6,014 bases of DNA, taken from the NCBI GenBank assembly GCA_003023245.1, contig PXTR01000058.1:1-6014 (forward strand), given 5' to 3'. This document shows, one piece after another, positions 1-6,014 of the stretch. The position numbers and the translations under genes were made by a program. The notes beneath the pieces were generated by a model, which was not told where the DNA came from, ran no database searches, and saw only the letters and a program-made list of their open reading frames with translations. The number at the start of each line of letters is the position of its first letter. Within the stretch, counting starts at the first letter, position 1. The stretch comes from Bacteroidetes bacterium QS_8_68_15. GTDB lineage: Bacteria > Bacteroidota > Rhodothermia > Rhodothermales > Salinibacteraceae.

Positions 1-345
1 GAGCAGCTGGAGGAAGACATCTACGCGGTGCTCGAAGACATCAAGGAGAACGGCGTCTCTCCCGAGGAGGTCGAGCGCGCCAAGACACGCGCCCGCGCCC
101 AACTCGTCAACAGCCTCGACTCCAACGACGGCCTCGCCCAGAGCTTCTCGCGCATGCAGGAGCTGACGGGCGACTGGCGCGAAGTCTTCCAGGACCTCGA
201 CGCCATCCAGCGCGTCACCGCCGCGGACGTGCAGCGCGTGGCGAAGGAGACGCTCCAGCGCTCCAATCGCACCGTCGCCATGATTAAAACCGCCGACGAC
301 GAAGACAGCGCCGCGGAATCCGAAGCGACCGCCGCAGCGGAATAA
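1..345 (+). CDS. M16 family zinc metallopeptidase, C-terminal end (5' truncated)
   Basis: The reading frame is open from base 1 and ends at TAA 343-345, giving the last 114 residues of a protein whose start lies outside the window. The visible part matches the last helices of M16 (insulinase/pitrilysin-like) C-terminal domains: GVSPEEVERAK, then a Gln-Leu-Val-Asn-Ser-Leu-(Asp)-Ser-Asn-x-Gly-Leu-Ala stretch, then LTGDWREVF, then VTAADVQRVAKE and SNRTV. It ends in an acidic, Ala/Glu-rich tail. M16 peptidases degrade peptides or process proteins using an HXXEH zinc site in their N-terminal half, which is not visible here. The next gene downstream is a second M16 protein that has lost that site, so I infer that this gene encodes the catalytic partner of an envelope-located M16B heterodimer. 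Family assignment is fairly sure; catalytic status is untested. Confidence 0.85.
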   Translation, partial: EQLEEDIYAVLEDIKENGVSPEEVERAKTRARAQLVNSLDSNDGLAQSFSRMQELTGDWREVFQDLDAIQRVTAADVQRVAKETLQRSNRTVAMIKTADDEDSAAESEATAAAE

Positions 346-445: not shown

Positions 446-2680
446 ATGCAACGCCTACGCTACCTGAACGCCCTTCTGCTCGCCGCTCTGTTCGTCGCCG
501 CCGGGTGTGCCGGCTCGCAGCCGTCTACTCCCCCCGCTTCCGGCGGGGAAGACGGGGGCATGACCGCCGGCACCTCTATGGTCGGCGACATCCGGGTTTC
601 CGAGTTCGACGTGTCGGAGATCACCTACCCGGCGGTCGAGGACTTCCAGATGCCCGACATCGAAAAGCTCGAGCTCGACAACGGGATGACGGTCTACCTC
701 ATCGAAGACCACGAGCTGCCGACCGTCAGCGCCACGGCGCGGGTAGGCGCCGGGGAGGTGTGGGCGCCGGCCGACCACGCCGGGCTCGCCTCCGTCACCG
801 GCACGGTGATGCGCACCGGCGGCACGCAGTCGATGTCTTCCGACGAGGTCAACCAGCTGCTGGAGAACCTGGGCGCCACCGTCGAGACGAGCATCGGCCA
901 GACCAGCGGCACGGCCTACATGAATACCCTGGCGGAGAACGTCGACCGGGTGCTGCCGGTCTTCGCAGACGTGTTGATGAACCCGGCCTTCGCCGAAGAC
1001 AAGATCGAGCAGGCCAAGAGCCAGCAGAAGACGTCCATCTCGCGTCGCAACGAGAACCCGCAGCAGATCGGGTTCCGCGAGCTCAACAAGCTCGTCTACG
1101 GCGCCGACAGTCCGTACGCGAAGGTGCCGCAGTACTACACCATCGACGAGATCACGCGCGAAGATGTGACCCGTTTTCACGGGAAGTACTTCACCCCCAA
1201 CAACACGCTGCTGAGCGTGTGGGGCGACTTCGACCCCGCCGAGATGAAGCGCAAGCTGCGCGAGGCGTTCGGCGACTGGGCGCGCGCGGAAGGCTTTCAG
1301 AAACCCGAGCCGCCGGCCGTCGAAGGAGAGCGCGACTACTCAGTCAACGTCGTGCCCAAAAGCGACGTGACGCAGAGCACCATCCTCATCGGGCACCTCG
1401 GCGAGATCAAGCGCAACAACCCGGACTACTTCCCGGTCATCGTGATGAATCAGGTGCTCTCCGGCGGCTTCAGCGGGCGGCTCTTTCAGAACGTGCGCAA
1501 AGATCAGGGCCTCGCCTACTCGGTCTTCGGCAACTACGGGGCCGGCTACGATCGCGAGGGCCGGTTCTTCTCCGGCGTCTTCACCAAAAGCAGCTCGACG
1601 GTGGAGGGCGCCCGCGCGGTCATCGAGGAGATCGAGCGCATGCGGCAGGAAGCCCCTTCCGAAGAGGAGCTGGAGCTGGCGAAGCAGTCCTACCTCAATT
1701 CGTTCGTCTTCAACTTCGACTCGCGCCGGGAAATCCTCGACCGGCTGATGACCTACGAGTACTACGGCTACCCGCAGAACTTCCTCGACCAGATCAAGCA
1801 GGGCGTCGAAGACGTCACCGCCGAGGACGTGCTGCGCGTCTCGAAAAAGTACCTCCACCCCGACCAGGTCGACATTCTCGTCGTCGGCAACCGCGAGAAC
1901 TTCGACCAGGACCTCGCGACCTTGACCAAGGACGGCACGGTCAACGAAATCGACATTTCGATTCCGACCGAGCCGCCGGGCGGCCCGGCTGACGGGGAGA
2001 AGGAAGCGCCCACCGCCACCGACGAGCAGGTGGCCGCCGGGCAAGACCTGCTCGCGGAGGTGCGCGAGGCGATGGGCGGGGATGCGTACGACGACATCGA
2101 CAACGTGCGCCGCTCGGTCGAAACCAACGCCGGCGGGCAGACCATCGAGCAGACGATTGCGACAAACCTGGCCGGGCAGGTGCGCGCCGAGGTCAGCACC
2201 CCGCGCGGCACGGTCACCATCATCGACGACGGCGAGCAGGCGTTCATCAAGACGCCGCGCGGCACGCAGCCGGCCCCGCCGCAGGTGCGCAAGCAGTTCT
2301 TGGGCGGCCTCCAGCGCAACTTCTCCTACCTGATGACCCAGCCGGGCGAGCTGGAGGTCAGCGACCAGGGCACGCAGACCGTCGAGGGCACCGAGCTGCG
2401 CGCGCTCCGCGTCACGCCCCCCGGCGGCAACGCCTTCACGCTGATGGTCGACCCGGAGACGATGATGCCCGCGCGCATGAGCTTCCAGGGCCAGAATCCG
2501 CAAACCGGCCAGTCGTTCGAGGCGACGAACGTCTTCAGCGACTACCGCGAGAAAAGCGGCGTCATGGTGCCCTACACGACCACGACCTACCGCGGCGGCG
2601 AAGAGGCGGCCACCACCACCGTCACCGGGTTCGAGACGAACGTGGACTTTCCCGACGGCTACTTTTCGGTGGAGCAGTAG
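446..2680 (+). CDS. M16 family pseudopeptidase lipoprotein with C-terminal LolA-like domain
   Basis: This is a 744-residue protein. I chose ATG 446 over an in-frame TTG at 386 because it places a lipoprotein signal directly at the N-terminus: Arg residues, the hydrophobic run LNALLLAALFVAAG, then Cys21. The TTG would lie at the edge of the palindrome. Residues about 72-215 form the N-terminal M16 domain, but the HXXEH zinc motif reads S116-V-T-G-T120 and the distal Glu position is near S197, so zinc catalysis is not expected. Residues about 232-480 form the M16 C-terminal domain with GGFSGRLFQNV and a retained Arg351/Tyr358 pair (RKDQGLAYSV), used for substrate binding in the family. After a Pro/Gly/Glu linker (about 505-526), residues 527-744 look like a LolA/outer-membrane-lipoprotein-sorting fold (FSDYREKSGVMVPY and PDGYF near the end). 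The likely role is the non-catalytic subunit of an envelope M16B heterodimer with the upstream gene. The role of the extra domain is unknown. Confidence 0.88.
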   Translation: MQRLRYLNALLLAALFVAAGCAGSQPSTPPASGGEDGGMTAGTSMVGDIRVSEFDVSEITYPAVEDFQMPDIEKLELDNGMTVYLIEDHELPTVSATARVGAGEVWAPADHAGLASVTGTVMRTGGTQSMSSDEVNQLLENLGATVETSIGQTSGTAYMNTLAENVDRVLPVFADVLMNPAFAEDKIEQAKSQQKTSISRRNENPQQIGFRELNKLVYGADSPYAKVPQYYTIDEITREDVTRFHGKYFTPNNTLLSVWGDFDPAEMKRKLREAFGDWARAEGFQKPEPPAVEGERDYSVNVVPKSDVTQSTILIGHLGEIKRNNPDYFPVIVMNQVLSGGFSGRLFQNVRKDQGLAYSVFGNYGAGYDREGRFFSGVFTKSSSTVEGARAVIEEIERMRQEAPSEEELELAKQSYLNSFVFNFDSRREILDRLMTYEYYGYPQNFLDQIKQGVEDVTAEDVLRVSKKYLHPDQVDILVVGNRENFDQDLATLTKDGTVNEIDISIPTEPPGGPADGEKEAPTATDEQVAAGQDLLAEVREAMGGDAYDDIDNVRRSVETNAGGQTIEQTIATNLAGQVRAEVSTPRGTVTIIDDGEQAFIKTPRGTQPAPPQVRKQFLGGLQRNFSYLMTQPGELEVSDQGTQTVEGTELRALRVTPPGGNAFTLMVDPETMMPARMSFQGQNPQTGQSFEATNVFSDYREKSGVMVPYTTTTYRGGEEAATTTVTGFETNVDFPDGYFSVEQ

Positions 2681-2844: not shown

Positions 2845-2878
2845 ACACACTCACAAACTCACGCGCCTACAAACCTAC
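2845..2878. repeat. A/C-rich degenerate repeat, right member of the inverted pair
   Basis: Two related units, CTCACAAACTCAC and CCTACAAACCTAC, lie next to each other. The second contains 2868-2878, the exact complement of 2701-2711. The final bases overlap the stop codon (2875-2877, minus strand) of the cupin remnant, so the repeat reaches into the end of that reading frame. Confidence 0.45.
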
Positions 2879-3104
2879 TCGTCACGGGCATGGGCGCGAG
2901 CCGGCGGCGAGGTCGCCTCGATGGCCTTGAAGCGCTCGCTGACTTCGTAGGCGTGCTCCGCGCCCGCGGGGACGACCCAGGAGTCGCCCTCTTCGAGCGT
3001 GATCTGCTGGCCTTCGAGGTGCACAGCGTAGCGCGGCCTTCGATGACGAAGCCGACCGTCTGACGTCTTTCGTCCACCGTCCCGATCCGGGCATCAGCGA
3101 GGAT
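2875..3104 (-). pseudogene. Truncated and frameshifted cupin-domain protein
   Basis: Two minus-strand frames together spell one cupin. The first frame (3104 down to about 3033) reads ILADARIGTVDERRQTVGFV then IEGR. After a shift near 3028-3035 the second frame reads YAVHLEGQQITLEEGDSWVV, then PAGAEHAYEVSERFKAIEAT and SPPARAHARDE, ending at TAG 2875-2877. GDSWVVPAGAEH fits the second cupin motif (G-x5-P-x-G-x2-H). The pattern VIEGR-YAVHLEG is the usual strand joining the two motifs, so two extra bases or one missing base would explain the break. The N-terminal part and the histidines of motif 1 are absent, and no good start codon is present: only GTG 3077 lies in the first frame, and the phasin stop codon is directly upstream. 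I read this as a decayed fragment. A sequencing error would explain the shift but not the missing N-terminus. Confidence 0.7.
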
Positions 3105-3108
3105 CGGC

Positions 3109-3888
3109 TTACGCTTCGGCCTCGTCTTCGTAGGCGAAGGTTTCCTGCACGGAGCGGTCCTGCTTGTGGACGACCAGCTCGCTGGGAAGATGGCGCCTGG
3201 CCAGCTCGCGCCCGCCCTCGACGGCTTCCTTTTTGGTGCCGTAGACGCTGGTGGCGCGCTCGGCGCCTTCTTTCGTCACGGCCCAGCCCTCCTCGTGCGG
3301 GCTGACGTGATAGGCCGCCCGTTCCGTCGCCGGGGCGCTGGAGCGCGCCGCGAGGCCGCTCTGCTGCTTTTCGAGCGTGGCGGCTACGCCGTCGAGCTTT
3401 TCGGCGAGGCGCTCGACCTTTTCGGCCAGGCTCTGCACTTCTCCACGCGTGGGCACGTCCAGGCGCCCGAAGACGCTGCGAAACGCGCCGTTGACGGCCT
3501 GCTCGATGGTCGAGACGGTGCCCGCAGCGGTGTCGCCGGCGGCTTTCACAGCGTGACGCTGTTGCTCGCCCAGCTCGCGCGCCGTCTCGTCAATCTGCTC
3601 GCGCCCGCGCTGCTCGAAGTCCTTTCCCCGGTCGACGAGGTCTTCGTAGAACTCCGCGCCCTGCTCCTCGGCCGCCGCGAGCGCGCCGAGGCCCGCCAGC
3701 CATACGTCGCGCCCGGTCCGCGCCGCCTCCCCCGGCAGCGCCAGCACGCGCGAGAGGCCGCGCCGCGTCTCGTTGTAGACGCCGGCGGCGATGCTCTCAG
3801 CACCGGCTTCCGCCTGTCCGGTTCCCTCTTTTACCTGGTCGGCGCCTTCCTTGATTTCTTGCTTGTCTTGTCCATTCGTCGTCGCCAT
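3109..3888 (-). CDS. Phasin-like (PHA granule-associated) protein with C-terminal DUF2188 domain
   Basis: This is a 259-residue protein starting at ATG 3886-3888 and ending at TAA 3109-3111. Residues 1-40 are polar and Gly/Glu/Gln-rich. Residues about 43-95 carry a phasin signature (DVWLAGLGALAAAEEQGAEF followed by YEDLVDRGKDFEQRG). Residues about 125-176 carry the second hallmark of the PhaF/PhaI-type family: a VFGRLDVPTRGEVQSLAEKV stretch followed by a heptad-like Leu pattern suited to a coiled coil. Phasins coat polyhydroxyalkanoate granules. Residues about 191-250 match DUF2188 (YHVSPHEEGWAVTKEGAERA, then SVYGTKKEAVEGGRELA and ELVVHKQD), a small domain of unknown function usually found alone. 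There is no signal peptide or membrane segment, so it is probably cytoplasmic. The coiled-coil part could equally serve a stress or membrane-surface role: no PHA synthase gene is visible here. Family calls are good; function is inferred. Confidence 0.82.
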   Translation of the reverse strand: MATTNGQDKQEIKEGADQVKEGTGQAEAGAESIAAGVYNETRRGLSRVLALPGEAARTGRDVWLAGLGALAAAEEQGAEFYEDLVDRGKDFEQRGREQIDETARELGEQQRHAVKAAGDTAAGTVSTIEQAVNGAFRSVFGRLDVPTRGEVQSLAEKVERLAEKLDGVAATLEKQQSGLAARSSAPATERAAYHVSPHEEGWAVTKEGAERATSVYGTKKEAVEGGRELARRHLPSELVVHKQDRSVQETFAYEDEAEA

Positions 3889-4226: not shown

Positions 4227-6014
4227 ATGAACCTGCAAAAGTTCACCGTCAAGGCGCAGGAGACCGTCCAGGACGCCCTTGAACGCGCCGCCTCGAACAA
4301 CCACCAGGGCGTCGAACCGGCGCACCTGCTTACCGCGCTCTTGGCCGACGCGGACGGCGTGGCCACCACGGTTCTGCGCCGCATCGGCGCGCGTCCCGAC
4401 CGCCTGCGCCGGCGCGCCGAGCAAGCGATTAGCAAACTGCCGACCGTCACCGGCGCGTCCGTCAGCGGGCAGTATCTTTCCGAGGCGACCAAGAACGTCT
4501 TCGACCGCGCTCGCGCCGAGGCCGACCTGCTGGACGACGACTACGTGTCGAGCGAGCACCTGCTCGTGGCGCTGGCCGAAAGCGACGACGCCGTCGGGGA
4601 GGCGTTGCGCGAAGAGGGCGCCACGAAGGACACCGTCGAGGAGACCATGCAGGAAGTGCGCGGTTCCCAGAAGGCCGACGACCCGCACGCCGAGGACCGC
4701 TACCAGGCGCTCGACAAGTACGCCCGCGACCTCAACGAGCTGGCGCGGGAAGGCAAGATCGACCCGGTGATTGGGCGCGACGAGGAGATCCGCCGCGTCT
4801 TGCAGATCCTCTCGCGGCGGCGCAAGAACAACCCCGTCCTCACCGGCGAGCCGGGCACCGGCAAGACCGCCATCGCCGAGGGGCTGGCCATTCGCATCGT
4901 GCAGGGCGACGTGCCGGAGGGGCTGCAGTCGAAGCGCATCGTGGCGCTGGACATGGGCGCGCTGATCGCCGGCGCGAAGTACCGGGGCGAGTTCGAAGAC
5001 CGCCTCAAGGCCGTCGTCAAAGAAGTCAGCGAATCGGACGGCGAGATTATTCTCTTTATCGACGAACTGCATACGCTCGTCGGCGCGGGCGCGTCGGAGG
5101 GCGCGATGGACGCGGCCAACATCCTCAAGCCGGCGCTCGCGCGCGGCGAACTGCGCGCCATCGGGGCGACCACGCTCGAGGAGTACCGCAAGCACTTCGA
5201 GAAGGACAAGGCGCTGGAGCGGCGCTTCCAGATGGTGCTCGTCGAGGAGCCGAGCATCGAAGAAACCGTCTCGATCCTGCGCGGCATCAACGAGCGCTAC
5301 GAGGTGCACCACGGCGTCAAGATCACCGACGCGGCGCTCGTGGCCGCCGCCGAGCTGTCCGAGCGCTACATCACCGACCGCTTTCTGCCGGACAAGGCCA
5401 TCGACCTGATTGACGAGTCGGCCTCGAAGCTGCGGCTGGAGATCGACTCGCTGCCGGAAGAGCTCGACAAATTGGAACGCGACATTCGCCAGCTCGAAAT
5501 CGAGCGTGAGGGCGTCAAGCGCGACGGCAATGAGGCCAAGCTCGAGTCGATCAACGGGGAAATCGCCGACCTCGAAGAGGAGCGCGACGAACTGCGCGCG
5601 CGCTGGCAGGAAGAGAAAGAGCACATCCAGACCGTCCGCGGCGCGAAGGAAAAGCTCGACCGGCTTCGGGTGGAGGCGGAGAACCTCGAGCGCGAGGGGG
5701 CCTACGACAAGGTCGCCGAGATCGTGAGCCGCTGGACGGGCATCCCCGCCGGGCGCATGATGGAGAGCGAGCGCCAGAAGCTCCTGCGCATGGAGAGCGT
5801 CCTGGAGGAGCGCGTCGTGGGTCAGCCGGAGGCCATCGAGGCCGTCAGCAACGCCGTGCGTCGCGGGCGCGCGGGCCTGCAAGAGGAAGGGCGGCCCATC
5901 GGCTCGTTCATCTTCCTGGGCACCACCGGTGTGGGCAAGACCGAGCTCTCGAAAGCGCTGGCGCAGTTCCTCTTCAACGACGAGAGCGCCATGGTGCGCA
6001 TCGACATGAGCGAG
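4227..6014 (+). CDS. clpB: ATP-dependent disaggregase ClpB (3' truncated by window)
   Basis: 596 residues are visible and the frame is still open at base 6014. The start at ATG 4227 gives [12 protein letters not shown], the standard ClpB N-terminus; no clear ribosome binding site precedes it. Residues 1-145 are the Clp N domain. AAA+ domain 1 has Walker A GEPGTGKT (207-214), pore loop KYRGEFEDR (251-259), Walker B ILFIDE (275-280) and arginine fingers Arg332/Arg333. The middle coiled-coil domain starts near 405. Domain 2 begins with RWTGIP (502-507) and has Walker A GTTGVGKT (565-572); the frame ends at IDMSE. ClpB threads aggregated proteins through a hexameric ring in the cytoplasm, working with DnaK/DnaJ/GrpE. 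The middle domain is oddly short: KVAEI (495-499) runs straight into VSRWTGIP, omitting about 38 residues that include the tyrosine-containing motif 2 helix. Identity as ClpB rather than ClpC rests on the long first motif ([17 protein letters not shown]). Confidence 0.96.

Follow-up and report, generated by a model that had tools for sequence, protein, structure and literature searches.

A clpB gene with a 123-bp in-frame gap in its middle domain, found on one Bacteroidota contig, and its possible origins

The clpB locus and its neighbours

The window analysed here, that is, the whole stretch of 6,014 nucleotides from contig PXTR01000058.1 of Bacteroidetes bacterium QS_8_68_15, contains clpB, genes for an M16 peptidase and a phasin, the remnant of a cupin gene and an unassigned end piece (Table 1). 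The 3' end of clpB is absent because the contig, 6,014 bases long like the window, stops inside the gene, and the encoded protein comprises the N domain, the first nucleotide-binding domain (NBD1), the middle domain and only the first part of NBD2.

Table 1. Features of the window and of its clpB gene
Feature	Positions	Strand	Remarks
End piece	1-345	+	114 codons, no Pfam match
M16 peptidase	446-2680	+	744 aa
Cupin remnant	2875-3061	-	C-terminal half only; Cupin_2 and Cupin_3 matches
Phasin with DUF2188 tail	3109-3888	-	259 aa
clpB	4227..6014	+	596 codons without stop, open at contig end
Middle-domain helix 1, present	5457..5525	+	Residues 411-433; AlphaFold2, window and full-length relative
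Middle-domain helix 2, present	5532..5693	+	Residues 436-489; AlphaFold2, window and full-length relative
Hybrid helix, predicted	5703..5738	+	Residues 493-504; window model compared with P0002 model
Join	5713..5723	+	Sole surviving copy of TCGCCGAGATC; two copies 123 bp apart in L001

Pfam matches in the window ClpB were Clp_N, AAA, AAA_lid_9 and AAA_2. The Clp N domain is present (PF02861, 68.2 bits against a cut-off of 20.7), and so is the first AAA+ module, with PF00004 and PF17871 both above their cut-offs; for the second module, the PF07724 match spans 41 of 166 positions, since the contig carries its first part only. The top NCBIfam family is TIGR03346 (ClpB), with 865.7 bits against a cut-off of 1232.1 for a protein that is here truncated by the contig end. 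Over the window protein, identity reaches 95-96% with five close ClpB clusters, and it ranges from 54 to 96% across all ClpB rows compared. The nearest genome encodes a further Clp protein (L086), 53% identical over residues 157-596, which we take for a ClpC from its first residues and from its match to the window protein. On the strength of these family and identity values, we rejected the reading of the window protein as a misread ClpC.

The same order of M16 peptidase, phasin and clpB is found in two related loci, that is, L001, from the metagenome-assembled genome Bacteroidetes bacterium QS_8_68_28, and L087, from genome G060. Their DNA identity to the window clpB is about 88% before the join described below and 91-93% after it, G060 appearing as close to the window as L001. 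Both differ from the window in keeping a segment of 41 residues and in carrying a repeat of 11 bp (L001) or 9 bp (L087) at its ends.

The cupin remnant adjoins the phasin gene and has an intact counterpart of 113 residues in G060. Compared with that counterpart, the remnant has two extra bases, a repeated CA at 3022-3025, that shift the frame, and roughly the first half of the gene is gone from it; before the phasin gene, the window is about 315 bases shorter than G060. Lesions thus affect two genes within 3 kb, as could be expected both of a lineage whose genes are decaying and of a contig with flaws.

The missing segment and the search for other carriers

In the window ClpB, KVAEI (residues 495-499) abuts VSRWTGIP without intervening residues, as an earlier note on this DNA had described. 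The note counted 38 residues missing at this place and three elsewhere relative to E. coli ClpB. Against the PDB structure 6oax, which we take to be E. coli ClpB, this count is correct: window residue 499 aligns with 501 and, in the second piece, residue 494 with 534, leaving 38 residues absent at the join and a separate gap of three further upstream. Alignment with close relatives, which the note had called for, showed these to keep the segment and gave a loss of 41 residues, or 123 bp, in frame and at a single site at the join in both protein and DNA. Apart from this gap, the window ClpB is collinear with its close kin in an alignment of 12 proteins and L001, in which the more distant P0008 has an extra repeat of its own.

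In 6oax numbering, the counterpart of E. coli Y503 is the second residue deleted, a tyrosine that falls in the class of at least 90% conservation in an alignment of 39 rows. By the same numbering, Tyr494 of T. thermophilus ClpB maps to this position, and passages of PMC5561102 name Tyr494 as a mutated residue. The window ClpB lacks the two-wing middle domain made of motif 1 and motif 2, since helix 3 from the conserved tyrosine onwards and the link that follows it are gone. Most of one wing of the coiled coil at which DnaK docks on this heat-shock chaperone is thereby lost. A complete motif 2 placed elsewhere in the protein, an outcome that the earlier note had thought of, was looked for by alignment and is absent from the 596-codon part on the contig.

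Other carriers of the gap were searched for in proteins, loci, genomes and viral contigs. The first of two protein searches scored 7,999 candidates, of which 120 were listed. The second was built on the 51 residues that surround the join, in favour of other carriers, and listed 120 of 192; its reach is that of relatives sharing words with the lineage, ClpBs without motif 2 in distant phyla lying beyond it, and among the matches listed the segment was absent from the window's own protein only. Taking both searches together, 172 of the 173 proteins listed, all spanning both flanks, keep the segment (41 of 41 positions in 170, 38 in one and 36 in another); the exception is the window's own, in whose row the aligner left three positions by chance. 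Likewise, each of 80 loci (the best 80 of 588) keeps 36 to 41 positions.

We also surveyed 114 genomes of the order to which the nearest genome belongs; 113 gave a match and 102 a best match with E <=1e-42; the remaining 11, with weaker matches only, were left out. From a relative that shares the gap, a match over query residues 1 to 196 would be expected. Among the matches listed, all 102 best ones start at query residue 60-86 and end at 196, a pattern that we take to mean that all 102 genomes retain the segment, and the sequence itself was viewed in G001, G060 and G059. In these three genomes the right flank occurs once each (at most three mismatches), with no second clpB bearing it. The exact join had no match in viral contigs. 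The join is known from one contig only, with no second carrier among the 173 proteins, the 80 loci, the 102 genomes and the viral contigs, and the suggestion that it might be a lineage trait found no support. A literature search aimed at natural ClpBs with an in-frame deletion showed none among the 15 of 18 papers listed, judging by titles and the beginnings of abstracts.

Predicted effects on the middle domain

In the AlphaFold2 model of a full-length relative (P0002), the middle domain shows helices at 411-433, 436-489 and 493-522; next come a short strand and a helix at 534-545 that opens NBD2. The window model has the first two and then a predicted hybrid helix, in which seven residues of helix 3 run straight into the last part of the helix that opens NBD2. 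This helix pattern, together with the alignment, backs the earlier claim that the helix bearing the Y503 equivalent was lost, and it suggests that the second half of helix 2 has lost its packing helix. Model confidence is lower in the window (mean pLDDT 79.8, pTM 0.52) than in the full-length relative (83.8 and 0.57), chiefly at residues 351-410 and 461-510; this drop is not attributable to the deletion alone because the window model also lacks most of NBD2. Comparison of the window model with PDB structures returned chains of ClpB, Hsp104, ClpC and ClpA, with large rmsd for whole-model rows and small rmsd from N-domain or NBD1 pieces only, so that it has no bearing on the deletion.

According to parts of PMC4436881, it is to the ATPase domain of DnaK that motif 2, comprising helices 2, 3 and 4, binds. 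Passages of PMC4023160 and PMC8024975 describe a deregulated ATPase in ClpB variants without motif 2, and hyperactivity together with reduced DnaK-system-dependent disaggregation in ClpB-Y503D; deregulated forms are described as toxic in portions of PMC3900729 and PMC4023160. The engineered E. coli proteins of these excerpts resemble the window ClpB in that motif 2 or its key tyrosine was removed. They were made and tested in the laboratory; in the window ClpB, the link to NBD2 is shortened as well. Another likeness is with ClpC and ClpG, whose single-wing middle domain, as sections of PMC8024975 present it, is also without a complete second wing; unlike them, the window protein is a ClpB by sequence and retains the long helix 2, half of it without a partner.

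All functional consequences of the deletion are ones we infer, largely by analogy with these variants. The mutant would keep helices 1 and 2, while both the NBD2 link and helix 3, starting at the conserved tyrosine, would be missing; both DnaK docking via motif 2 and the normal resting state would be lost. The far end of helix 2 would then be tied almost directly to NBD2, and because of this tie, we rate impaired assembly or loss of function no less likely than hyperactivity, that is, the product may as well be a misassembled, inactive or crippled protein as a deregulated one.

Direct repeats at the join and the origin of the gap

The locus L001 carries TCGCCGAGATC at each end of precisely the 123 bp absent from the window. 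The earlier note placed a 9-base copy, GCCGAGATC, at 5715-5723, where it is indeed present, and proposed recombination between two such copies. A deletion between short direct repeats is well supported, but the repeat measures 11 bases in L001, the nearest kin, and 9 in L087. Among the best 80 of 588 loci, L001 alone has at least 10 matching bases at both sites, the others having 1 to 9. In the clpB of L001, the 11-bp repeat is the second-longest direct repeat (at least 9 bases, spacing 15-150) after one of 12 bp with a spacing of 57.

The reading frame was preserved because the two repeats encode Ala-Glu-Ile in an identical frame, which makes it a by-product. In fact, an in-frame deletion is expected from 11 of the 12 longest L001 clpB repeats at spacing up to 400 (the best 12), and the nine with a spacing of no more than 150 would all delete in frame. 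Since most of these repeats behave in this way, the preserved frame is no evidence of selection.

Short direct repeats are a classic setting for slippage deletion. An ordinary clpB may have lost 123 bp once, between two 11-bp direct repeats, and the event would have retained a single repeat copy and the reading frame. Slippage is the probable route if the loss took place in the cell, and the presence of the join in living cells is itself presumed; the same repeat setting fits equally a template switch in the library or a false join in the assembly.

The segment is missing from the window clpB, its absence is unique among the sequences examined, and the repeat is present in kin. The best explanation is, in our view, a real, recent and private allele of this strain, to which we give about an even chance. 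It is favoured by the exactness of the event, 123 bp being gone relative to L001 with 11-bp identical ends and one copy left in the window, and by a similar divergence from L001 on both flanks of the join (87.8% identity before and 91.1% after). The base quality of the contig is apparently good, the cupin remnant aside, because the phasin and M16 peptidase frames are open. Usual assembly k-mers are longer than 11 bases, so that an overlap of this length would be short for a false join. Nevertheless, the join is carried by one contig that ends only 291 bp beyond it, there is no second carrier, and the cupin gene beside the phasin is also damaged. These last points would also fit a join made between the same two repeats, either by a template switch in library amplification or by an assembly that wrongly joined a short overlap or wrongly closed a gap, the clpB of the cell being full length, which we hold to be somewhat short of an even chance. 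Every relative fetched keeps the segment, including the five clusters that are 95-96% identical. Three contigs stop within clpB, namely those of the window, L001 and L087 (at 637, 747 and 833 in full-length codons), and that of L088 (G059) starts within it, suggesting that clpB tends to break assemblies, and an exact tandem duplication of 82 residues in another ClpB (P0008) reveals that odd copies of this region exist in such data. On the other side, the neighbouring frames are clean, the cupin lesions are as compatible with real mutation as with error, and P0002, P0003, P0005, P0006 and P0007 (888-890 aa) are apparently complete ClpBs. The longest L001-identical run in clpB (72 bp, 5688-5759) lies across the join, with a probability under shuffled codons of 0.0014 at that place and 0.033 for any place, while third positions around the join are, on average over 79 loci, no more conserved than elsewhere. 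The run may be due to chance or may hint at a bridging or recombined piece from another strain, a weak hint because window and L087 are also identical over stretches of 68 and 65 bp elsewhere in clpB. A chimera of two organisms was also considered and found unsupported, the identity to L001 being similar on either side of the join.

We give hardly any credence to a selected loss of motif 2 that left the lineage with a functional ClpB free of DnaK control. The intact frame and the mostly synonymous differences on the flanks (of the codon differences to L001, 144 are synonymous and 31 non-synonymous) would agree with it, as would the deregulated or hyperactive state that passages of PMC4023160 and PMC8024975 ascribe to ClpB without motif 2 and to ClpB-Y503D. 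However, the purifying signal may wholly predate the loss, no relative examined shares it, and HSP70-family genes are present in all three near genomes checked. Moreover, the M domain is called essential to disaggregation in a part of PMC8024975, and excerpts of PMC4023160 and PMC3900729 report toxicity for deregulated ClpB and Hsp104. Nothing was found in support of a conserved or adaptive variant. It likewise seems very improbable to us that a natural ClpB without motif 2 arose in one step between repeats, is expressed, folds, escapes control by DnaK and is tolerated in the environment, as a natural counterpart of the engineered hyperactive ClpBs.

The window ClpB does not look like a new kind of chaperone; it looks like the product of a private deletion between short repeats, either real or made in assembly. 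If real and kept, it would offer a natural test of the life of a disaggregase without the wing that links it to DnaK; in laboratory studies, ClpB in this state is described as deregulated and toxic. At least as likely, the gap is a private lesion or an assembly join, and in that case it calls for caution with single, repeat-bounded, in-frame losses near contig ends, and the lesson is that such losses should not be taken for biology without reads.

The ClpB with the tandem duplication mentioned above (P0008) has 944 residues, is encoded on a contig of 10,032 bases and is 59% identical to the window ClpB. Its duplication occupies residues 521-684, across the boundary between middle domain and NBD2, and covers the end of the former and the start of the latter.
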